Shown here: positions 2,487-13,380 of the stretch, piece after piece
Position numbering within the stretch: position 1 is the stretch's first letter
How the letters are laid out: each line of letters opens with the position of its first letter
Origin: a bacterium
GTDB taxonomy: Bacteria; ARS69
Reading direction: 5' to 3'
Length of the DNA: 14,826 nucleotides
Assembly: GCA_025774805.1 (NCBI GenBank)
Contig: JALGZR010000096.1
Location: 1 to 14,826, forward strand
Notes under the pieces: generated by a model
Databases searched by the model: none
Told to the model about the DNA's origin: nothing
Seen by the model: the letters and a program-made list of their open reading frames with translations, nothing else
Translations under genes and position numbers: made by a program

Positions 2487-2573
2487 CCGGGAGTCCGGGT
2501 CGGAAGGGCCGGGCGCGTCCTCGCCGTCGCCGTGGTCGAGACGGGTGGAATGGACCAGGATCCACCGCCTCGC

Positions 2574-2598
2574 GACGAGCCCGGTGAGACATCCGGGC
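2574..2598 (+). repeat. Hairpin repeat, copy 1 of 3
   Basis: Starts with GACGAGCCCGGTGAGA. The stem is GCCCGG (2579-2584) with CCGGGC (2593-2598) and an 8-nt loop TGAGACAT. It shares the GACGAGCC-GGTGAGA core with copies at 10234 and 13319, and with the first of these also the preceding GCCTCGC. It lies between the convergent ends of the DUF6982-like and kinase genes. Confidence 0.75.
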
Positions 2599-2606
2599 CG
2601 GATGTC
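2588..2606. terminator. Hyphenated palindrome just beyond the kinase stop, possible bidirectional terminator
   Basis: GACATCCGG (2588-2596) and CCGGATGTC (2598-2606) are perfect inverted arms around one base; as RNA this folds as a 7-bp stem with a 5-nt loop. It begins 4 nt past the stop of the minus-strand kinase gene and overlaps the right arm of the hairpin repeat, so the two stems are mutually exclusive. No U-run follows in either direction, so the terminator role is inferred from position only. Confidence 0.4.
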
Positions 2607-2610
2607 CGAG

Positions 2611-3645
2611 CTACGCGGCGGGGACGGGGTCGGCGAGCTCTCTTCGGGCCCCCGGCCGGAGGCAACGCTCGACGATTCTCTTCCGAGTGTGGGTCACTGG
2701 GTGGTCGACCGAGAAGAGGCGCGCCATCCGGTGGGTGGCGAAGAGCAGGTAGGCGGGCAGCAGGAGGGGAAACAGATCCTCGCGGACCCCCCCCTCCGCG
2801 AAGCACGTCAGGAGAAAGGCGCGGTTCCGATCCCTCGGACGACCGGGGCGAAAGAAGCCGTCCTCGAATCCGCGGAGTCGGTCGAGGCCTCGGCGGGACG
2901 CGTCGCGCAACGAGCAGTCCACGGCGAAGTGGATGGGGTCCAACCAGGGGAACTGACGCTTCTCTCCGAACTCCCAGTCGATCGCGCCGATACGCTCCCG
3001 CTCGACGATCAGGTTCGACGCCCTGAAGTCGCCGTGGCCGAAACCGTACAGGGACGTCTCGGTCGCCCGCGCCTCGACTTCCCGGATCAAGCTCTCGATC
3101 TCCCTTCGGATCGCCCCTTCGGGCTCCCAGGTCTCGAGGAAGAAGTGGGCCGAACGCAGAAACGGCTCCCAGAGCACTCCTTCCGCTCCCTCGAAGAGGC
3201 CGGTCTCTCCCCAGAGCTCCGCGAGCCAGCTCGTCGCCCGGTCGTGAATCTCGCGGACGGGCCGGTCACGCTCTCGGAGATCCGCGATTCGCCGATCCAG
3301 AGGAACCCCGGGGAGAATCGTCTGTACGGTGGCGACGCGGTTTTCGGTCTCCTCTCGGAGGAGCGCGCGGGGGAAGAGTCGGCCGGCGTTCCTCGGGGCG
3401 GCGCCTTCGAGCTCTTTCAGAACGGCGTGCTCGTGAAGGGCCCACTGTCGAGCCGTACCGTCCCTCGGGATCTTCCCGACCAGGAGAGGCCTCGACTCGC
3501 CGGCTCGAAAGACGTGGAAGAGGACCTTGCCGTGCCGCCCCTCGGATCCCGACGACAGAAAGAAGTCGAGTCGGGCCGGCGCCCTCCCCGGGAGGCCCAG
3601 CTCACGCCACCTCGCCCGGATCGACCGCTCGATCCGCTCGATCAT
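2611..3645 (-). CDS. Aminoglycoside-phosphotransferase-fold kinase (APH family)
   Basis: 344 residues with the kinase landmarks in order. LLVGKIPRD holds the putative ATP-binding Lys (about K58). A partner Glu lies in the HEHAVLKELE helix (about E72). The catalytic loop is HGDFRASN (H204, D206, N211), and AIDWEF (D223) is the metal-binding Asp equivalent to DFG. APH-fold enzymes phosphorylate small molecules, sugars or lipid-linked substrates. A resistance role is not indicated: the neighbours are a methyltransferase and an SGNH hydrolase, which suggests modification of a surface glycan or lipid. ATG at 3645 is preceded by GAGGGGAG with 7 nt spacing and overlaps the methyltransferase stop as ATGA, implying translational coupling. 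Possible terminator structures lie just past the stop. Confidence 0.8.
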   Translation of the reverse strand: MIERIERSIRARWRELGLPGRAPARLDFFLSSGSEGRHGKVLFHVFRAGESRPLLVGKIPRDGTARQWALHEHAVLKELEGAAPRNAGRLFPRALLREETENRVATVQTILPGVPLDRRIADLRERDRPVREIHDRATSWLAELWGETGLFEGAEGVLWEPFLRSAHFFLETWEPEGAIRREIESLIREVEARATETSLYGFGHGDFRASNLIVERERIGAIDWEFGEKRQFPWLDPIHFAVDCSLRDASRRGLDRLRGFEDGFFRPGRPRDRNRAFLLTCFAEGGVREDLFPLLLPAYLLFATHRMARLFSVDHPVTHTRKRIVERCLRPGARRELADPVPAA

Positions 3646-4796
3646 CGCTCGTCTCCCCTCGCGGCGACGATGCCGAGGTGGGGCGCGAGGTGCGGCAGGA
3701 GTCCGATCCGGAACGCCCTCTTCGCGACCACCGCCCGCCACCGGTGGCTCGCCCGGTCGACCCCGAGCCGCTCCGCGTACCAGTCGAAGACCGTCGGACG
3801 GTCGAGGGGGATCAGCTCCCGCGGGGCCCGGCAGGTCGGAACGGCCGCGTAGAACCGGAGGTCGCCGAAGCCTGCCGCGCGGAAGAGTCTTCGGTAGCCT
3901 CCTAGTCCGTAGGTATACATCCGGAACTCGGGTCCCGTCCTCCGCTTCGAGAGAAGGCCGGCGAGCCAGCGAGGCATCCGATTCACCCCCCGGATGTGCG
4001 TGGGATCGGCGGACATCCCGTAGAGATACGGATACCCCCACCGGTTCTCGGTCGCAACGTAAAGATGGCCCCCGGGCGCGAGCTTGCGGCGGATGTTCCG
4101 CAGGACGAGCTTTTGCACGTCGCGCGGATTCCTTCGGATCCTCGAGAGACCCGCCTTCGCGAGCTCCCCACGAAGGATGACGAGGTCGAATGTCCCGTCG
4201 GGAAAGGGGATGTCCTGGACGGAGGCCGCGTACGGGAAGACGTTGTCGAGTCCCGACTGCCGCGCCCGAATCTCGAGGAAGCGGGCCTTCTCGGGCAATT
4301 CGTCCGAGGCGGCGATGACCCCGACCTCCGGTGCGATCGCCGTCGTGACCTCTCCCCAGCCCGCTCCCATGTCGAGCACCCGGCTCGTCTCGGTCAGCGG
4401 CAGGAGAAACCGCCAGTCGGCCCGAGAGGAGTCCGCTGCGCCCTCGACCCGGAGCTCGCCGAGGGGGGCTCCGCTTTCCGTATCCGGCCCGCAGAGGACT
4501 CCGTCGCCGCCCGGGGCGGAGACCCGGTCGCCGGGCTCTCCGAAGCGGCGCGAAAGCGCCCGTTCCCAGCCGAGGGTCTCGGCATCCCGCAACAGGGACT
4601 CCATCTCCCCGCGCGGAATCTCACCCCGGTCGTCCTCCGGCCGGGAAAGGACGGGGATGTCGCCGGCTCGCTCCCATCGCTCCCCCGTCGACGGGCAGGT
4701 GATCTCCGTCTCGTCCCAGTGGAGAGGGGCTCCCGTTCGCGGGCAGACGAATTCGAGCTTCCGTCGCACCGACTCCGACACCAGAAGACCCGTCAC
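3642..4796 (-). CDS. Class I SAM-dependent methyltransferase with degenerate Trm112-like N-terminus
   Basis: 384 residues. Residues about 15-52 read CPRTGAPL...CPSTGERWERAGDIPVL, the layout of a Trm112/UPF0434 zinc-ribbon, but the second Cys of each CxxC pair is Thr, so zinc binding looks lost. The Rossmann methyltransferase domain follows: motif I LDMGAGWG (about 141-148), an acidic SDELPEKARF strand, QDIPFPDGTFDLVILRG (motif IV) and KLAPGGHLYVATENRWGYPY. The last is typical of methyltransferases in polysaccharide or lipid clusters. The substrate is unknown. No ATG fits the domain start; GTG at 4796 is used because GGAGGG lies 8 nt upstream. It is the first gene of a two-gene unit with the kinase and diverges from the SGNH hydrolase gene. 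Confidence 0.8.
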   Translation of the reverse strand: MTGLLVSESVRRKLEFVCPRTGAPLHWDETEITCPSTGERWERAGDIPVLSRPEDDRGEIPRGEMESLLRDAETLGWERALSRRFGEPGDRVSAPGGDGVLCGPDTESGAPLGELRVEGAADSSRADWRFLLPLTETSRVLDMGAGWGEVTTAIAPEVGVIAASDELPEKARFLEIRARQSGLDNVFPYAASVQDIPFPDGTFDLVILRGELAKAGLSRIRRNPRDVQKLVLRNIRRKLAPGGHLYVATENRWGYPYLYGMSADPTHIRGVNRMPRWLAGLLSKRRTGPEFRMYTYGLGGYRRLFRAAGFGDLRFYAAVPTCRAPRELIPLDRPTVFDWYAERLGVDRASHRWRAVVAKRAFRIGLLPHLAPHLGIVAARGDER

Positions 4797-4804
4797 GAGT
4801 GATT

Positions 4805-4810
4805 CCCTCC
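4805..4810 (-). promoter_or_regulatory. Shine-Dalgarno deciding the GTG start of the methyltransferase
   Basis: On the minus strand GGAGGG lies 8 nt before GTG at 4796. The frame stays open for over 300 codons upstream without family-like sequence, so this site fixes the likely start. Confidence 0.65.
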
Positions 4811-4994
4811 GGGGTCGTACCTCTCCTTCTCTCCCTTTCGGCAGGATTCGGTGGCATCTTTCGCAAGGAACCCCAGAATCGGCAAAGGGGCCGGGGAAGT
4901 CGCTTCCCTCCGAACCGGCCGACTTGGGGCAGAATGGGGGAGTCGCGGGCCCGGCCCCTCGGCCGGCCGCCAACCCGAGGAGATGAATCGATCC

Positions 4995-6140
4995 ATGCCG
5001 GGACTCTGGCGGAGCTCGCTCGTCGTGGTGTTGGGCCTGGTGGCGGGTCTCGTTCTCGCGGAGCTCTCGCTGCGCGTCCACAACCCGATCGAGGTACGGA
5101 TTCTCGAGTCGGAGATCCGCCTCCCGGTACGCAAGAAGGTCATCTACCGGAATCCGGGAACACCGAAGCTCGACCGGGAGATCGTCTGCGCGCGCAACAT
5201 CCTGGGCTTTCGGGGCCTCGACCCGCCGAAGGACTTCGAGGAGCCCCTCACGATCGTGATGGTGGGCGGGAGCACCACCGTGTGCCGCTACCTGTCCGAG
5301 GGAAAGACCTGGCCCGACCGGCTCGGCGCCCGTTTGGCGGAGAGGTTCGACAATGTATGGTGGAACAACGCCGGGATGGACGGCCACTCCACGTTCGGTC
5401 ACACGATCCTCCTGAGGCAGGTTCTTCTCGACCTCCGACCCGACTATCTCGTCTTCCTCGTCGGCCTGAACGACACCGATCGGACCGATCTGAACCGACG
5501 GGACGCCACGGTGATCGGCACCGGAACCCGGCTGGGGCGCCTGATCGACGCGAGCGAGCTTCTCTCGACGATTCGCGTCCTCGTCCGGGCGCGACGGGCC
5601 CACGAACGGGGACTGCAGCACGAGATGGGCATCGACCTCGCGAGGATGGAGGTGCGGGAAGTCTCGGAAGAGGAGATCGAGAGGACGGTCGAGCACAATC
5701 GAAGGAAGGAGGCGGTCTCCGCCTACGGAAGACGGCTGACCCACCTCATCGAGCTGTCACGCTCCGGAGGGATCGAGCCGATCCTCGTCACCCAGCCCAT
5801 GCTCTACGGCGACGGCATCGACCCGACGACGGGAGTCGAGCTCGGTCCGATCGTGGAGGGGCGGATCACGAGCCGCCAGGTGTGGCGGGTGATGGAGATC
5901 TACAACGACGTGACCCGCGCCGTCGGCCGAGATCATGATGTGCTCGTCATCGACCTGGCCCGTGAGCTCGCCAAGGACTCCGCGTACTACCACGACTGGA
6001 CCCACTTCACGAACGAGGGCGCCGAGCGGGTGGCGGAGATCCTGAGCGCCGAGATGGTCCCGTTCCTGGAATCGCGGGGGCATGCGGTCGGCGGGGCGGG
6101 AATCCCCGGACGCGCGCGAAACGGAATGGAATCGAGTTGA
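4995..6140 (+). CDS. Membrane-anchored SGNH/GDSL-family hydrolase
   Basis: 381 residues. An N-terminal hydrophobic segment (SSLVVVLGLVAGLVLAEL) serves as anchor or uncleaved signal, so the enzyme acts outside the cytoplasmic membrane. SGNH blocks are visible in order: VMVGGSTTV with the nucleophile Ser (about S93), the Gly block NNAGMDGHS, the Asn block VGLND (about N159), and DWTHFTNEGAERVAE with the catalytic Asp and His (about D334, H337). Family members are esterases, O-deacetylases or acyltransferases, often acting on exported polysaccharides. GAGGAG directly abuts an ATG at 4983, leaving no spacer, so the next ATG at 4995 (12 nt spacing) is chosen; 4983 remains possible. The gene diverges from the methyltransferase-kinase pair and may act on the same envelope product. 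Confidence 0.85.
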   Translation: MPGLWRSSLVVVLGLVAGLVLAELSLRVHNPIEVRILESEIRLPVRKKVIYRNPGTPKLDREIVCARNILGFRGLDPPKDFEEPLTIVMVGGSTTVCRYLSEGKTWPDRLGARLAERFDNVWWNNAGMDGHSTFGHTILLRQVLLDLRPDYLVFLVGLNDTDRTDLNRRDATVIGTGTRLGRLIDASELLSTIRVLVRARRAHERGLQHEMGIDLARMEVREVSEEEIERTVEHNRRKEAVSAYGRRLTHLIELSRSGGIEPILVTQPMLYGDGIDPTTGVELGPIVEGRITSRQVWRVMEIYNDVTRAVGRDHDVLVIDLARELAKDSAYYHDWTHFTNEGAERVAEILSAEMVPFLESRGHAVGGAGIPGRARNGMESS

Positions 6141-6150
6141 GTACACCAGT

Positions 6151-6164
6151 TCCGGCAGGCCGGA
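6151..6164. terminator. Small GC hairpin between convergent genes
   Basis: TCCGG-CAGG-CCGGA forms a 5-bp stem in the 52-bp gap between the ends of the SGNH hydrolase and secreted-protein genes. A competing GGCCG/CGGCC pairing overlaps it. CTCCTT follows on the plus strand, but there is no true U-run. A terminator role is suggested by position only. Confidence 0.3.
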
Positions 6165-6192
6165 CTCCTTGTCGGCCCTTGGCGCGGATCCC

Positions 6193-6989
6193 TCAGCGAT
6201 AGAGACCCTTGATCTTCCCCCAGCTCGTTCCCTCCACCGCGATTCCGTCGGGCGACAGGCCCACGATCGTCGCGACCACCGGCATCTCCGGCCAGCTGCC
6301 TCCGTTCGCCTCCGGGACCGTGCCGGTGCCGGTGATGAAGAAGACGCCGTCCGCTCCCGTGTCTTGCGCCACGGGGTGAGAATGTCGTCGACGTAGGCGT
6401 TCCCGGTCGGAGAGAAGGGGGAGTCCCGGAGGAACGCCGTTCCGGTCATCACGAACCCTTCCGAGGTGTCGGGGACACCTGTGCTCCCGAGGGTTGCCAC
6501 GAAGTCGACGCTGAGAGTGAACGCTCCGGTCGTGGGGTTGTACCCGCCGAAGTCGACGGCGGCGATCTCGGAGCTGTAAGGCCCGTGCCCGGCGAAAGGC
6601 TGGGAGCCACTCACGGTCCAGTCGGTGATGATTGCGCCGCCGCCGGACTGCGCGACCCCGACGTCGACGTCGATCGTCCCGTTGAGAAACGTCATCGCCT
6701 GCATTCCCGGGGGCATCCACGGGTCGGTCTGACCTCCGACCCCCGTGAAGTCGAACGCGTTGAAGCTCCACGCCCCCGACGCGTTCGGATCGGAGAACTG
6801 CAGGGTCGACGAGTTCGGATCGATCACGTCGTCTCCGGTCCCGATGAGAGCATCCGTGGCCGGCCAGTGGTTCAGTACGGCGTCGTCGTCGATCGCCAGT
6901 TGCATCGTCCTCACCTGGGCGGCGCAGAGCCGGAGGGAGAGGATAGAGGCGAAGACGAGAACGAAGAGAGTCGTGACAGCAAGCTTCAA
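6193..6989 (-). pseudogene. Secreted protein of unknown function, disrupted by a one-base frameshift
   Basis: The gene starts at TTG 6989 with a signal peptide (MKLAVTTLFVLVFASILS, cleavage likely after CAA). The mature part is Gly-, Asp- and Thr-rich, with stretches such as GAWSFNAFDFTGVGGQTDPW, GTIDVDVGVAQSGGG and FGGYNPTTGAFTLSVDFVA. It looks like an extracellular beta-sandwich; I do not recognise a family. The frame is good to ILTP, then continues one register over as VAQDTGADGVFFITGTGT and ends WGKIKGLYR-stop at 6193. Adding one C to the C-run opposite 6373-6376 restores a continuous 265-residue product. Without it the first frame runs on about 600 nt as unlikely sequence antisense to the SGNH gene. 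It is either a real lesion or a homopolymer error. No FlgD tail is present. Confidence 0.65.
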
Positions 6990-6994
6990 GAAAC

Positions 6995-7001
6995 ACCTCC
7001 C
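6995..7001 (-). promoter_or_regulatory. Strong Shine-Dalgarno deciding a TTG start
   Basis: On the minus strand GGGAGGT precedes TTG at 6989; 6 nt separate the GGGAGG core from the start. TTG is immediately followed by a textbook signal peptide. Upstream in-frame ATG would add 17 residues with no signal-peptide character. Confidence 0.7.
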
Positions 7002-7123
7002 GGTTGGGCCGAAAATTGCGGAGAAGCACGAAACGGCCAACCACGACTCTTGCGTTGATCAAAGCTTCGGGCACCCGCCCCGACCCGAGGACTCTCCCGG
7101 TTTCGAGACCCTGCCCGGTCGGG

Positions 7124-7491
7124 TTCGAACGGGGTTGGGTCTATCAGGGCGGCGGGGACTGGAAGCCCGACCGCGAGTCGGAGCCGGTCACGGATCTGAC
7201 GGCGCTTCTTGCGCTCGCGGGCGACGGAACGGAGATCACGTTCACGGCCGTGCTCGAGGGCGAGGAATACCGGTTGGGCGTGGAGCGCGATGAGGATACC
7301 TCGATGTGTTCGATGTGACCGGCTGTCGAATCCGGACGCTCGCTCGGAGTCCCCGTCTCATGGCAGGCAGCTACGAACACGCTTGGGATTTGCATGACGT
7401 CCGCGGTCGGCGCGTATCCGCCGGAGCCTACTTCGTTCGACTCTCCGCTCCGGAAGCGACGTCTCGGCAACGGGTGGTCGTACTGCGATAG
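7124..7491 (+). pseudogene. 5'-truncated, frameshifted remnant of a FlgD-tail secreted protein
   Basis: Two adjoining frames look coding. The first, to about 7295, reads FERGWVYQGGGDWKPD...VTDLTALLALAGDGTEITFTAVLEGEEYRLGVERDE. The second, from about 7294 to the stop at 7491, reads YLDVFDVTGCRIRTLARSP, AGSYEHAWDLHDVRGRRVSAGAYFVRL and a basic end RQRVVVLR. The second part is a complete FlgD-like Ig C-terminal domain (compare VFDVTGRxIRTL, W-D-x-x-x-x-RGRxVxAGxYFxRL). One missing base near 7294-7297 would join them. There is no start codon with signal peptide or RBS upstream, so the 5' part of the gene is gone. It ends 15 bp before the end of the convergent Asp-box gene, which carries the same kind of tail. 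Confidence 0.6.
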
Positions 7492-7506
7492 AGCCGAACG
7501 GGAACT

Positions 7507-10092
7507 TCAACGCAAGCGGGAGATCCGTCGTGTCGCGACCCCGTCGGGCGACTCGAGGCGCGCAAGATAGACTCCCGCCGCCACCTGCCGACCTCTCGCA
7601 TCCCGGCCGTTCCACTGCACCTCGTGCCGGCCCGCCGGGCGCGGCCCGTCGGCCAGCACGTTCACGAGACGTCCGGCCGCATCGTAGATCCGGACGTCGA
7701 CGTCTCCGCTCCGGGCTTGAGTGAAGCGCAGCGTCGTCGCCGAGCGGAAGGGATTCGGGTAGTTCATCAGGGAGAGAGGCTCGTCCGACCCCGGTTCGCG
7801 CAGCTCCGCGACCGACGTCGCGTCCTGAATCTGGTAATCCCAGATGCCGCGGCCGTAAGTACCGAACCGCATCGCACCCGCCGCCGGCACCGCCTCGACG
7901 CACCAGTACGTCGTAAGGGGAGCCGTCGCGTCATCCAGGGACTCCCACGCGTCCGTGGAAGGGTCGAGTCGGAATGGCCCCGCCTCCGTGGCGGCGTATA
8001 CGACCGCGCTCGGCCCCCCCTCGTAGGCCAAGTCGTACACGAGAGTCGGAGGGAGCCCGTCGCCGAGGGGCTCCCACGTGACACCGCCGTCCCCCGTGCG
8101 GTACACCGCCGGTCCGCTGTAACCGCTGCCTCCGATGGTGGCCTCGCCGGCGACCGTCGGAGAGAACTCGAGGGCGGTCCCGTAGAAGTAGTGCGCCGAA
8201 GGCCCGGAGTCGGCGGAGACCGTCCAGCTCGTGCCCCCGTCGGTCGAGTACCAGAGCACGCCGGAGTTCGTCACCGTAATGCGATCGTCGGAGTCCACGG
8301 GCGAGATCGCCAGCGCCGTCGTGTACGTTCCCCCGTGGACCGTGAAGTCCTGCGCGCCGAACACCATGGTCCAGGTCGTGTTGAAGGCGCTCTTGCGATA
8401 GTAGACGATCTGGTTTCCGCAGAAGTAGAACGAGTCGGGGTCGTTCGGATCGGCGAGGATATAGGGCATCCAGGAGAAATCCTGGTCGCCGGGAAAGTCG
8501 AGATACGCGACCAGGGCGTGCGCGAACTCGCCCCACTGCACGAGCACGAAACCGGGATAGACGGAGAAGACCCACTCGTGGGTGCCGTCTCCCGAGGTGA
8601 GATGGCCGTAGTCCCCGCTGATGAGCTGCTCGAAATCGCGCTGCGTCCCGACCGCCGGCCCCGTCGAGCGCTGATAGCCCTGGTCCTGCGAGCCCGCGAG
8701 AATGAGATTCGGATCGTTCGCGGACGTGAGAGTCGAGTAGTACTGACTCACTCCGAGCCACTCGAGCGAGATGTTCGTGACGCTCGCGACCCGATCGTCA
8801 CTCCGGTACAGGCCGCCGTCCGTGGCGATGTAGTGGATCTCGGATCCGCTTCCCGTCCAGACCGCGTTCAGTCCCGGAAGATCGGCGTGCAGCTTATTCA
8901 CCGGATCGGCGTAATACGCGCTCCACGGGTTCACGAGCGAGAAGGTCCCCCCTCCGTCCGCGGACCGCCAGAGCTCGACACCGCCGAAGAGCACCACGTC
9001 CGGATCGACGACGGACGCCTCCAGAGTCTCCCAGAAGTCGTGGATGTCGTACCGATAGCCCCAGGAGGCGCCGCCGTCGGTGGAGCGGTGCAGCTCCCAC
9101 TGGGATCCGTTCCGCAGGGCCGCGTAGAACGTCGGCGCCCCCGCCTCGGAACCGGCGAGCACCACGTTGTCCGGATCCGGGACCGCGTGGGTTCCCGCCG
9201 GCGTCCAGTTGGCTCCCTGATCGTCGCTGAAGAGGAGAGTCGGACCTTCGAGGAGCCAGATCCGCCCCCCCGACTGTCGATCGATCCAGATGTCGCCGGG
9301 ATTCGCACCCAGATTGCGGATGCGGGTGTAGCTGAGCCCACGATCCTCCGAAAGGAACAGACGCCACACGTTCCAGCCGAACTGATTGAGCTTTCGGCCG
9401 ATCAGGTAGATCCGGTCCGGATCGCTCGGGTCGGCGAGGACCCGAATCGCCCGGTTGAAGTTGTCCACGTTTCCCGACGGCAGATTCCAGTTCGCGCCCC
9501 CGTTCTCGGTGTAGTGGACGAGCCCGTCGTCGGTGATGCGCGTGATCGTCTCCGGAGGTCCCTCGGCGACGGCGACCCCGTGTGCTCCGCCGTAAAGATT
9601 GTCCGACAGCGGACGCCATCCCTGTCCGGTGAGGCTCGCCTTCCAAACGCCTCCCCGGGACGATCCGGCGTAGAGGCTGTCCCCGTCCGCGGACGGCGCG
9701 GCCGCGTGCATCCGCCCCGCCAGGTTTCGGCTTCCGATCTCGGTCCATGGAGAGACGCGGAGCGCTCTCTCGTCCTGGACGCGACGGTTCCGCGCCTCCA
9801 TCCTCGCGAGTCCGTTGCGTCGCTCGATCGCCCGCCAGTCCGTGCCGGGAGCCGTCCGGTGAATCTCCTCGATCCACTCCCGACGCCCCTCCTTCCGGAC
9901 CCGCTCCGAGTCGCGATCGAGAATGTGCTCCGTCGGCGACGGAAGAGCGGTCGCCGGGATGGTCACGACGGAGCGCTCGGAAGAGGGCGGGACCACGCCG
10001 GAGGAATGCGACGGAGACGATCGATCCTCCCCCGAGAGGCCGATCGTCAGGACGAGGACGGAAAGTGCCAGCGGCGGGAATCGTGGGCGCAT
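7507..10092 (-). CDS. Secreted Asp-box (BNR/sortilin-like) beta-propeller protein with FlgD-like C-terminal tail
   Basis: 861 residues. The signal peptide is MRPRFPPLALSVLVLTIGLS. Seven Asp-box-like motifs are visible: TENGGANW (196), SEDRGLSY (248), SDDQGANW (289), STDGGASW (337), SADGGGTF (377), STDGGTSW (616) and RTGDGGVTW (665). They match the BNR or sortilin/VPS10-like propeller of secreted sialidase-like proteins. Enzymatic activity cannot be claimed, because Asp boxes are structural. FGTYGRGIWDYQI (about 743-755) closes the propeller. The tail from about 773 has LMNYPNPFRSATTLRF, VRIYDAAGRLVNVL and GRDARGRQVAAGVYLARLE, a FlgD-like Ig domain used for cell-surface attachment or secretion sorting in FCB lineages. 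ATG at 10092 has GGAGG 9 nt upstream. This is the one large uninterrupted gene in a stretch of broken ones. Confidence 0.85.
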   Translation of the reverse strand: MRPRFPPLALSVLVLTIGLSGEDRSSPSHSSGVVPPSSERSVVTIPATALPSPTEHILDRDSERVRKEGRREWIEEIHRTAPGTDWRAIERRNGLARMEARNRRVQDERALRVSPWTEIGSRNLAGRMHAAAPSADGDSLYAGSSRGGVWKASLTGQGWRPLSDNLYGGAHGVAVAEGPPETITRITDDGLVHYTENGGANWNLPSGNVDNFNRAIRVLADPSDPDRIYLIGRKLNQFGWNVWRLFLSEDRGLSYTRIRNLGANPGDIWIDRQSGGRIWLLEGPTLLFSDDQGANWTPAGTHAVPDPDNVVLAGSEAGAPTFYAALRNGSQWELHRSTDGGASWGYRYDIHDFWETLEASVVDPDVVLFGGVELWRSADGGGTFSLVNPWSAYYADPVNKLHADLPGLNAVWTGSGSEIHYIATDGGLYRSDDRVASVTNISLEWLGVSQYYSTLTSANDPNLILAGSQDQGYQRSTGPAVGTQRDFEQLISGDYGHLTSGDGTHEWVFSVYPGFVLVQWGEFAHALVAYLDFPGDQDFSWMPYILADPNDPDSFYFCGNQIVYYRKSAFNTTWTMVFGAQDFTVHGGTYTTALAISPVDSDDRITVTNSGVLWYSTDGGTSWTVSADSGPSAHYFYGTALEFSPTVAGEATIGGSGYSGPAVYRTGDGGVTWEPLGDGLPPTLVYDLAYEGGPSAVVYAATEAGPFRLDPSTDAWESLDDATAPLTTYWCVEAVPAAGAMRFGTYGRGIWDYQIQDATSVAELREPGSDEPLSLMNYPNPFRSATTLRFTQARSGDVDVRIYDAAGRLVNVLADGPRPAGRHEVQWNGRDARGRQVAAGVYLARLESPDGVATRRISRLR

Positions 10093-10233
10093 CGGGGCCT
10101 TCCTCCTTTCGAATGAGAGGATAACACTTCACCGGGGTCGAGAAGGGGACCTCAATCTCGGGGACGCTCGCCGTGCCCGGTCACCTCGTCGTCGGCGGGA
10201 ATTCGGGCTCGCACGCGGTCACCGCAGCCTCGC

Positions 10234-10259
10234 GACGAGCCTGGTGAGAAATGCAGGCT
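10234..10259 (+). repeat. Hairpin repeat, copy 2 of 3
   Basis: GACGAGCCTGGTGAGA core. The stem is AGCCTG (10238-10243) with CAGGCT (10254-10259), loop GTGAGAAATG. It differs from copy 3 at one loop base and shares GCCTCGCGACGAGCC (10227-10241) with copy 1. Its end overlaps the stop codon of the minus-strand glycosyltransferase gene (10258-10260). It lies in the 165-bp gap before the Asp-box gene. Confidence 0.8.
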
Positions 10260-11785
10260 AGTATCCCGGGAGCCGCCGGATGAGCACGACGCGCAGCTCA
10301 TCGGGGGGGATTCTCGGCCCCCCCGCCCGCGGCTTGGTCAGCACCTGGATCCGCCGTTCCGGAAAGGTCAACTCCGCCCAGGCCTCGACCGAGTAGCCGG
10401 CGAGGATCGCCGCACCTTGGACCTCGGGATACTCCCCGCGCGGCTTCACCCACGTGGGCAGCGGTGGACCCTCCACGAGCGTGCCGTTCGCCGACCGCCG
10501 AATCGAGTCGCGCAGCTCCTCGAGAAAGGAGTCGCTCGCCGTGGTGGCGCGGTCCCATTCCCGGTAGTGGTAGATGAGCGGAGAGTAACTCGCCTGCCAG
10601 ATCAACGAGGCCGCCAGCAACAGGATCGACCCCGTGGCCGCGATTCGGAGCGCTCCCCTCTCGTGGTGCACCACGGAGATCAGCCACTCCGCCAGGGCGC
10701 CGGCCCCCATCGCCAGTCCGGCTGCCGGGATCAGCGCATACCACGTTTCCATCTCACCGGCCGTCGCATAGACCAGAGTGACCAAGACCAACCACATGAC
10801 GGCGAGGAGCCCCAGACGCAGCGGTTGAGAACCGGGGGGCACCGGCCCCGGTTCCCCGGCCCCTTCCCGGGATTGCCGGAAGGCGAGCCGTGTCGCCAAC
10901 AGTCCGGTGACGACCAGGCCCGTCACCAGGATCCCGAGCATCCACCGCCCCGCGACGACCTCTCTCATGACCGGTTGGGGCCAGACGAGCACCTCGATCA
11001 TGCGAAGCGCCCATCGGGGGAAGCGGCCGATTGCCGCCGCCAGGCTGGTCGACGCATGGCCACCGATCCCGCCGAGCACGGCGACTCGCACCGACAGAAC
11101 CGCGACGAGCACGGCGAGGTGCGGCACCAACGCTCTCGTCGCCCGTCTCAGACGATCGCGTCCGGATTCCCCGGGGCGGTCCAGTAGCACGGCGAGAAAG
11201 GTGAGTGCCGGGAGGATGAGGGCCGCCTCCCTGGAGAGCACCGCGATCAGAGTGAAGAAGGCCGGGAGAATCGGCGGCCGAGCAGCCCGCACCGACCGGG
11301 GGGAAAGCTGCGCCGCCAGTGACAGCATCATGAAGAGCCCGCAGAGCGTTTCCGGGCGCCGGGAGGGAACCGGAAGGATTTCGAGATGAGTGGGATGCAG
11401 CAGGAAGTACAGCAGCGCGGCGATCGGAGCCACGCGAGCCCGCGGCTCTTCGCACCAGGAGAAGGAGCGCCGTCGAGCAGCCGGCGAAGATCAACAGACT
11501 GGTGAGCTGGTAGCCGAAGGGTCTCAATCCCCAGATCGCGTAGTCCAGAGCGAATACGAGGTTGAGAACCGGACGGTAGAAACGACCGGAATACCGTCCT
11601 TCCATCAGGCCTTCGGTGAAATTGTCCCGGAGGTCGCCGAACGACTCCACGCGACTGGAGACGATGATCGGGTAGGTATCCCAACCCATCAGTCCCCAGT
11701 CTCGAGTCTGGCCGAACAGAATGCCGGCGGAGACGACGATCAGGGCGATCGGGACGGTCTGAGCCCAGAGATTCGGCCGTTTCAT
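10258..11785 (-). pseudogene. TMTC/PMT-like multi-spanning membrane glycosyltransferase, one-base frameshift
   Basis: The first frame (11785 to about 11440) begins MKRPNLWAQTVPIALIVVSA and carries WGLMGWDTYPII and RFYRPVLNLVFALDYAIWGL, then FGYQLTSLLI. The Y-R-P-x-x-N-L-x-F-A-L-D-Y-A-x-x-G-L pattern is characteristic of GT-C/PMT-related proteins that resemble TMTC O-mannosyltransferases. The next frame continues the same topology: VAPIAALLYFLLHPTHLEIL, RRPETLCGLFMML, SREAALILPALTFL and further helices, to a tail ending at TAG 10258. Removing one base from the G-run opposite 11439-11441 gives a continuous protein of about 508 residues, reading RRAAARVAPIAALLY across the joint. No TPR repeats are present. 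It lies 113 bp downstream of the sulfatase-like gene on the same strand, so the two could form one transcript. Confidence 0.7.
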
Positions 11786-11898
11786 GCATGCACCGAGCGG
11801 TCCCCAGTTCACGAAGCAACCGCGCGCGACTCTACCTGATTCCAGGCTCGGATCCTCACGAAACCGTCACCCCTGCCGACGACTCGACCTCGGTGCCG

Positions 11899-13263
11899 TC
11901 AATTCGTGTAGCCGAGGGCCCGGAGCTCGTCCTTCGTACCCGGATCGATCCGGGGTGCTTCTCCGGGGCGTCCCGCGAAGCGTGCCGGATCCCCCTCGAT
12001 CCAAAGCGCCTCCAGTCTCCGCCAGACGCCGGCTTCTCTCTCGCGGAAATCGCGCGTCTCACCGGGATCGTCCACGAGGAAGTAAAGCTCCCCCGTCTCC
12101 GATCCCCGGACGCGGATCGCCTTCCAGACGCTCGTTCGGGTCACCTCGAGCTCACCGTGATGTTCGGCGAAGACCGCCCGCGGCACGGAGGGGCCGATCG
12201 GCGTTCGGGCGAGATCGATTCCCTGGCACTCCGGAAGAGCATCGTCACTTACGACGGCGGCCACGGTCGGGAAGACGTCCACGAGACTGACCGGATCGTC
12301 AACGATTCGACCTCCGTCGAAGGCACCGGGCATCCGGATCAAGAGGGGCACTCGAAGCGTCTCCTCATAGAGGTGGAAACGGTGCCCGTGCCGCCCGTGC
12401 TCGAAGAACTCCTCACCGTGATCCGCGACCACGATGAGGAGGGTGCGGCCCAGATCCCCCCGCTCCCCGAGACGGCGGATGATCCGGGCGATGACCGCGT
12501 CCATCCAGCGGATCTCGGCCCGGTACAGGTCACGAAGATGCTCGAGATCCGCGGCCGGCATTCCGGCGTGGATCCGGTCGTCCGACAGGACGCCTCGACC
12601 GGTGATGTCTCCTTCGTAGCCGTCATCGACGTACCGCGGGTAGGGTCGAGGAGCCTCGTAGTCCGCGTGCGGATCCCAATGGTGAAGGAAGAGAAAGTAC
12701 GGATTACCCGTGGGAAGGGTGGTGAGCCACTCTTCGGCCTTGGCGTGCGTGATCGGACCGGTCACTCCGAAACGAGAGCGTATGATCGCGTGACCGGTGT
12801 TCCGTATGCGCCCCTCGTCGTTGACCTGGATGTGGTAGCCCACGCAACCGGTATAAGTCTCGAACCCCTGGGCAAAGCCGTAGCCGGGATGCAGGTAGGG
12901 TCCGGACCAGAATCCGGCCGTCCGGTACCCCTTCGACCGGAGGAATTCGGCGATCGTCTCCCTTTCCTCGGAAAGCGATTGGCCATCCCGGTTGACCCCG
13001 TGGCTCTCCGGGTACAGGCCGGTAATGAGGGAGATGTGTGAAGGGAGGGTTCACGAGGCGGTCGACAGCGCGTTCGCGAAAACGACTCCCTGGCGCGCGA
13101 GCCGGTCCAGAGTGGGGGTCGTGCCTTCGGGTGCGCCCCCGAAGCCCACGAAATCGTGACGAAGGGTATCAATCGAAATCAGCACGACGTTCGGAGGCGG
13201 CTCCGCAGAGGGGCCGCACCCGGAGAAACCCATCCAGGCGACCAGCATCCACACGCGACGCAT
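11899..13263 (-). pseudogene. Sulfatase/alkaline-phosphatase-superfamily lipoprotein with one in-frame TGA
   Basis: 454 codons in one continuous frame except TGA at 13053-13051. The N-terminus has a lipoprotein signal (MRRVWMLVAWMGFSGC, Cys16). PNVVLISIDTLRHD carries the first metal ligand Asp (about 32), followed by TPTLDRLARQGVVFANA. The next codons are S-T-A-S, TGA, then TLPSHISLITGLYPESHGV, so the stop sits one residue before the position of the catalytic C/S/T-x-P-S-R/H motif. Downstream are HHWDPHADY (about 194), VVADHGEEFFEHG with Asp281 and His282, GHRFHLYEETLRVPLLI, and the C-terminal ELRALGY, all typical of PF00884. The nucleophile would be Thr, not Cys, so sulfate ester hydrolysis via formylglycine is doubtful; a phosphotransfer or phosphodiesterase role is possible. 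AGGAG lies 6-7 nt before ATG 13263. Family homologues commonly have Trp before TLPSH, so TGG-to-TGA is the simplest explanation. Confidence 0.8.
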
Positions 13264-13318
13264 CGTCTTCTCCTAAGACCGCGCCCGAGTCCCTTCTTGC
13301 CGTGGCGTTCTCGATGAC

Positions 13319-13344
13319 GACGAGCCTGGTGAGATATGCAGGCT
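13319..13344 (+). repeat. Hairpin repeat, copy 3 of 3
   Basis: GACGAGCCTGGTGAGA core. The stem is AGCCTG (13323-13328) with CAGGCT (13339-13344), loop GTGAGATATG. It is one loop base different from copy 2, although their flanks are unrelated. It is 56 bp upstream of the sulfatase-like start, on the opposite strand relative to that gene. Confidence 0.8.
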
Positions 13345-13380
13345 GGACGATCGTTCTCCACCCGATCGATTGAAACCGTT

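Follow-up and report, generated by a model that had tools for sequence, protein, structure and literature searches.

Three solitary hairpins in the window

The window, a 14,826-nucleotide stretch of contig JALGZR010000096.1, contains three copies of a short hairpin repeat, at positions 2574-2598, 10234-10259 and 13319-13344. As stated in a preliminary description of this DNA, all three have the same orientation (+ strand) and lie outside genes or at a gene edge. They are solo, truncated right ends of a MITE family (Table 1). The number of interior bases kept differs between the copies (14 in copy 1, 12 in copy 2, about 0 in copy 3), and a left end was not found within 230 bp of any of them, the best match being no better than at control positions. 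The outer end of copy 1 has diverged and reads CCGG in place of CTAG. In copy 2, the terminal CTA provides the TAG stop codon of a leftward gene that ends at 10258.

Table 1. Repeat features in the window
Feature	Position	Strand	Description
Copy 1	2560..2601	+	Solo right end: 14 interior bases, GAC and the 25-base terminal repeat
Copy 2	10222..10261	+	Solo right end: 12 interior bases (CCGCAGCCTCGC), GAC and the consensus terminal repeat; ends with CTAG
Terminal inverted repeat of copy 2 (GAGCCTGGTGAGAAATGCAGGCTAG)	10237..10261	+	Exact match to the genome-wide consensus GAGNCTGGTGAGANATGCRGGCTAG
Copy 3	13319..13346	+	Solo right end: GAC and the 25-base terminal repeat alone; ends with CTGG

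Copies 1 and 2 have (C)GCCTCGC in common upstream, in agreement with the preliminary description. Copies 2 and 3, which were said to differ by a single loop base, do differ at that position, but their ends differ as well (CTAG versus CTGG). The stem pair that varies among the copies is C-G in copy 1 and T-A in copies 2 and 3. The sequence around the small palindrome reads GACG-AGCCTG..CAGGCT-AG, and a GTAG-type tag is absent. None of the three hairpins is followed by a T run on its 3' side, and they are therefore not intrinsic terminators. Elsewhere in the window, at 7300-7490, a short reading-frame remnant resembles a C-terminal secretion/sorting domain (RVSAGAYFVRLSAP...); it looks like a gene fragment, and the large gene beside it has a tail of this kind.

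The hairpins are ends of a 182-bp element

The genome-wide search proposed in the preliminary description, carried out on the host assembly (5.1 Mb, 284 contigs, 96% complete), gave 99 exact copies of the 16-base core GACGAGCCYGGTGAGA, 44 forward and 55 reverse, whereas the reversed pattern has 0. The 25-base end occurs 394 times genome-wide when up to 3 mismatches are tolerated, and 0 times in the control; both counts greatly exceed chance. The core was found in none of 40 other genomes, four of which belong to the host's phylum. Within the end consensus, GGTGAGA is almost invariant. Outward from the core, the copies stop at about ...GGTGAGANATGCRGGCTAG and then diverge into abrupt unrelated flanks; inward, most of them run through a common interior to a second, inverted 25-base end. 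Rather than the 25-bp hairpin assumed before, the unit is a non-coding MITE of ~182 bp, CTAGCCTGCATNTCTCACC...GGTGAGANATGCRGGCTAG, with short forms of 55-110 bp. It has CTAGCCYGCATNTCTCACC at the left and the complement at the right, and its interior is near-palindromic. It has properties by which MITEs are recognized: a length of 70-300 bp, no coding sequence, terminal inverted repeats and many copies.

Element-level counts refer to 0.63 Mb of stretches around copies, where the choice of loci by exact core biases the sample toward intact right ends. These stretches contain about 84 two-ended elements of 55-208 bp (mode 181-183), 52 of which are 180-183 bp long. Full-length copies have a consensus of 181 bp and a median pairwise identity of 0.89, and fold end to end. 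According to simple gene calls, in which strand is misassigned at high GC, 86 of the 99 cores are intergenic, compared to 17% expected at random. The best left-end match is bimodal over the exact cores, with 72 having a left end and 27 behaving like the control; therefore, 27 of the 99 are truly one-ended. Both element ends are CTAG or CTAG-like, with no clear direct repeat beyond CTAG.

At two host loci (L025:3470-3516 and C80:32454-32487), element ends abut head to head with one CTAG in common, forming a ~34-bp palindrome GGTGAGANATGCAGGCTAGCCTGCATNTCTCACC. Two further loci, L037 and L056 on contigs C35 and C104, carry near-identical HAD-type nucleotidase genes, each followed by the same element end, and probably reflect either a duplication or the presence of two strains in the MAG. 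This nucleotidase gene, located upstream of two copies, had been suspected to encode a transposase and was rejected. Pairs of terminal repeats 1-2.5 kb apart in the host were considered as autonomous elements and taken to be neighbours instead; one pair encloses an ordinary HAD-type nucleotidase gene.

Coordinated changes join the two ends of one element

The preliminary description interpreted the T-A to C-G change as a sign of selection on the small fold. The change itself is present in copy 1, but positions -19 and -6 show no association over 273 ends (TA 139, TG 52, CA 29, CG 17; Fisher p=0.21). In 112 of these ends the -21/-4 pair is broken, and the full 6-bp stem with its 10-nt loop is found in just 90. 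Selection on the fold of the small terminal hairpin is therefore not supported.

Coordinated change does exist between the two ends of a complete element, a form that the three window copies lack. Within one element, the left and right -6 positions agree in 85 of 104 cases (58.6 expected, p<0.0005), and 20 of the 104 elements have changed at both. The two ends are also coupled at -9 and -19. Elements in the G/G state form no subfamily, their interiors being as similar to each other (identity 0.903) as to those of A/A elements (0.901). Asymmetric mismatches and bulges are kept across copies or phyla, at -11 and -21, at the apex (CGAC/GCCT) and where CTGCTGCGG faces CCTCGCNACGA.

The folded interior is homologous across phyla

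Interior blocks (CTRCTGCGG, CTCGACRTA..TAYGCCT and CCTCGCTACGAA) are shared, in an almost gap-free frame, by 17 elements with a length of 183-185 bp, which come from Gammaproteobacteria, Acidobacteriota, Actinomycetota, Gemmatimonadetes and other groups and have a between-family identity of 48-58%. When the structure folded from one sequence was applied to nine unrelated sequences, 68% of the interior cells were paired, versus 33-45% with the structure slid. In an alignment of 13 rows, double changes occur at 34 of the 53 interior pairs, and the covariation score is 0.388, versus 0.186 for shuffled and at most 0.155 for slid versions.

Following another proposal of the preliminary description, a covariance model was built on the interior alone, without terminal repeats and without the host genome, so that it was trained on other phyla. 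It matches host elements of the window's family with a best E of about 1e-7 (many at 1e-6 to 1e-3), and a second host subfamily at 1e-12 or better. Because the model recovers them, the homology of the host copies is settled. A sequence-only HMM of the interior, tried as proof of homology, matched in exact register and was set aside as too weak for the host copies. The second subfamily of the folded core is located at L052:3861-3999, L087:8925-9063 and L302:1501-1639; the copy in L302 has different terminal repeats (CCGGCCCGGACCATTCATGA).

Among 289 other genomes sampled across bacterial families, the model matches 16. We regard 12 of these as safe, since they show the conserved side motifs, and the matches in G047, G174, G283 and G309 may be other palindromes. 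No Rfam match was found for the element family, and a BLAST search with a 184-bp element against plasmids and phages gave no match. The motif sequences are absent from the literature searched, which misses most subscription journals, and a prior description is possible. We also observed MITE classes of 248 and 168 bp (L195:820-1067, L196:649-896, L229:1944-2191, L157:684-851 and L162:2109-2276) with the same IS1380-type ends and different interiors, which likewise form end-to-end folds (z of the interior, -2.6 to -6.9).

The terminal repeats match those of IS1380 elements

Written as GTGAGAAATGCGGGCTAG, the element end is present in at least 119 DNA stretches from many phyla, some of which contain MITE-sized pairs. 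In a Planctomycetota MAG, these ends flank a 1683-bp IS (L237), the transposase of which scores 417 bits with Pfam DDE_Tnp_1_4 and 322.8 bits with the NCBIfam IS1380 equivalog model. The same ends are found on annotated IS1380 elements of plasmids from Bradyrhizobium and Pseudomonas putida, and two gammaproteobacterial MAGs contain full IS1380 elements with exact ends. One gammaproteobacterial genome holds both an IS1380 element (L271) and a 184-bp MITE (L140). The IS1380 element of R. leguminosarum has TTAG on both sides. Like our elements, the IS1380 family (NF033539 / PF13701) has terminal repeats of the type CTAGCCCGCATTTCTCAC..., and the type element IS1380A has the same TCTCAC core; unlike IS1380 elements, the MITE lacks coding sequence, and its structured interior is not found in them. 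The covariance model of the core finds nothing significant in 12 IS1380-bearing loci, neither placing the source of the core in the noncoding ends of IS1380 nor allowing the interior to be an IS1380 leftover, an idea that was rejected on this ground.

IS1380 is present in 28 of 50 genomes with the end motif, compared to 26 of 193 sampled genomes (p=2e-9); part of this enrichment is circular, since the motif searched for is at the same time the end of the IS itself. Of 12 core-positive genomes screened, 2 have IS1380 over the cut-off (G143, and the host by its fragment), which is about the background rate. Some core relatives have unrelated terminal repeats. In the host, the only trace is a C-terminal fragment of an IS1380-type transposase (L093, C17:1747-2085) without matching ends nearby, possibly a relic of a former partner or an unrelated element; a full IS1380 partner with matching ends was not found in the fetched parts of the 284-contig assembly.

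Other partners were rejected. Against RAYT-type mobilization, put forward in the preliminary description, no Y1/RAYT transposase was found in the 96%-complete genome: PF01797 has 0 matches in the host, while controls register in 5. IS91/Y2 has no ends in common with the element; a single fragment of an IS91-type Y2 transposase occurs in the host (L021, C212:28212-28670), without these ends. Judged from the end sequences, an IS1380-type DDE transposase acting in trans would be the likely partner.

Core and terminal repeats come apart

The same core is found between different terminal repeats: TAGCCCGNATTTCTCACC, TAGCCCGNATTATTCATGA, CTAGCCTGGANNATGCACG (genome G102), TTGAGCCAATTGCAAAATTATGA (G310) and TAGAAGCGGTTTCATAAGTC (G089). 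In G102, one free terminal-repeat position varies between A, G and C, and in all 11 elements the two ends carry the same base there (3.9 expected). The total end agreement in this genome is 217 versus 186, with 201 for the highest shuffle. A search of G102 by end motif found no transposon-sized pair of its terminal repeats and no autonomous partner. G102 also has a class of 327-329 bp (C33:4701-5029, C79:6098-6426, C50:14225-14552, C111:6208-6534 and C41:11821-12148) with the same terminal repeats as its 185-bp elements.

The family has the appearance of a structured MITE that is widespread, has no Rfam entry and borrows transposase ends. We speculate, tentatively, that it may be a distinct and widespread mobile lineage, in which a core hairpin of ~140 bp has a conserved asymmetric shape, must be recognized in folded form (RNA or single-stranded DNA) and has repeatedly acquired different terminal repeats to ride different transposases across phyla.

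Discussion

We hypothesize, with a probability of roughly 0.7, that the hairpins represent right-hand terminal inverted repeats from a MITE family moved in trans by an IS1380-type transposase, and that the solo ends are remnants. A single strand of the element is predicted to form one long, imperfect hairpin from end to end; its apex (CGAC-stem-tetraloop-stem-GCCT) and its side motifs (CTGCTGCGG / CCTCGCNACGA) are conserved. An IS1380-family DDE transposase, supplied in trans, most likely binds the terminal repeats and would move the element into intergenic CTAG-like (YTAR-like) sites, with duplication of the target. Single right ends would then be left after deletion of the rest of the element, an origin that has also been argued for REP singlets (PMC3116915). 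The fold may itself be used, as single-stranded DNA or as RNA.

Two explanations stand out for the coupling of the arms. The folded form may be used, or template switching may keep the quasi-palindromes matched. Template switching during replication creates and maintains hairpins and compensatory changes, and its role in maintaining quasi-palindromes is documented for RNA hairpins (PMC8794818). It would correct the arms without any selection on the fold, and the element would be an ordinary MITE. This explanation fits the finding that one coordinated change recurs: the G/G elements form no subfamily, as would be expected from correction. However, correction should erase the asymmetric mismatches and bulges that persist at -11, at -21, at the apex and at CTGCTGCGG/CCTCGCNACGA, and the conservation of these speaks for some selection on shape. 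The length also remains constant at 183-185 bp despite the low identity between families. We consider template switching alone to be a plausible account, at somewhat less than even odds. Alternatively, each genome could contain several transposases of differing end specificity, with each element keeping matched ends for its own one. The matched end subtypes in G102 and the association of one core with unrelated ends in different genomes are in line with this possibility, but neither G102 nor the fetched host parts contain an autonomous partner with these ends, and matched single-base variants would demand many transposases; we think it unlikely.

REPINs, pairs of palindromes that form a hairpin and are mobilized by a RAYT (Y1) transposase in the form of single-stranded DNA, resemble the element in several respects. 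Described REPINs are inverted doublets that fold end to end as one hairpin, with remnant-like singlets and compensatory changes from arm to arm (PMC3116915), and the arm coupling at free positions of the ends is easier to explain with a mover that depends on the fold than with a plain DDE element. In contrast to REPINs, the unit here is ~182 bp long, its ends match IS1380 elements, the GTAG tag is missing and the genome lacks a Y1_Tnp match where controls are detected, which makes a REPIN very improbable. CGTC-tagged REPs, for which the dedicated transposase is unknown, are similar in that GACG (reverse complement CGTC) adjoins the small palindrome; they are defined by a stem of 8-9 bp, a loop of 4-5 nt and a CCA tail (PMC3733652), whereas the 6-bp stem and 10-nt loop found here are often broken, being complete in 90 of 273 ends. 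The least credible explanation, which we give hardly any weight, is a non-mobile cis-acting RNA or terminator family. The intergenic position of 86 of 99 copies and the strong conserved fold would agree with it, but not the two-ended repeats with abrupt unrelated flanks, the hundreds of copies in a host whose end core is absent from four genomes of the same phylum, the abutting elements, or the lack of a T run and of an Rfam match. The preliminary description of a REP-like structured element is thus partly supported: it was right in kind, in that a small intergenic palindrome is probably mobilized in trans and its fold is under some pressure, and wrong in the particulars.

Returning to the MITE moved by an IS1380-type transposase, other bacterial MITEs (RUP, NEMIS, Nezha, ERIC; PMC3733652) are likewise non-coding, multicopy, intergenic and foldable, with inverted ends and a length of 70-300 bp. 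They differ from the family described here, the folded interior of which is conserved with covariation in several phyla and lies between different terminal repeats.

The usual view of MITEs is that they are decayed IS copies and that their interiors are passive. In this family, conservation across phyla lies in the interior, most of which covaries, while the terminal repeats vary from genome to genome and the two ends of an individual element change in concert. This raises the question whether a bacterial MITE must fold to multiply, or whether template switching alone holds a palindrome together across phyla. The covariance model also offers a means of annotating this class of repeats, which is missing from Rfam.
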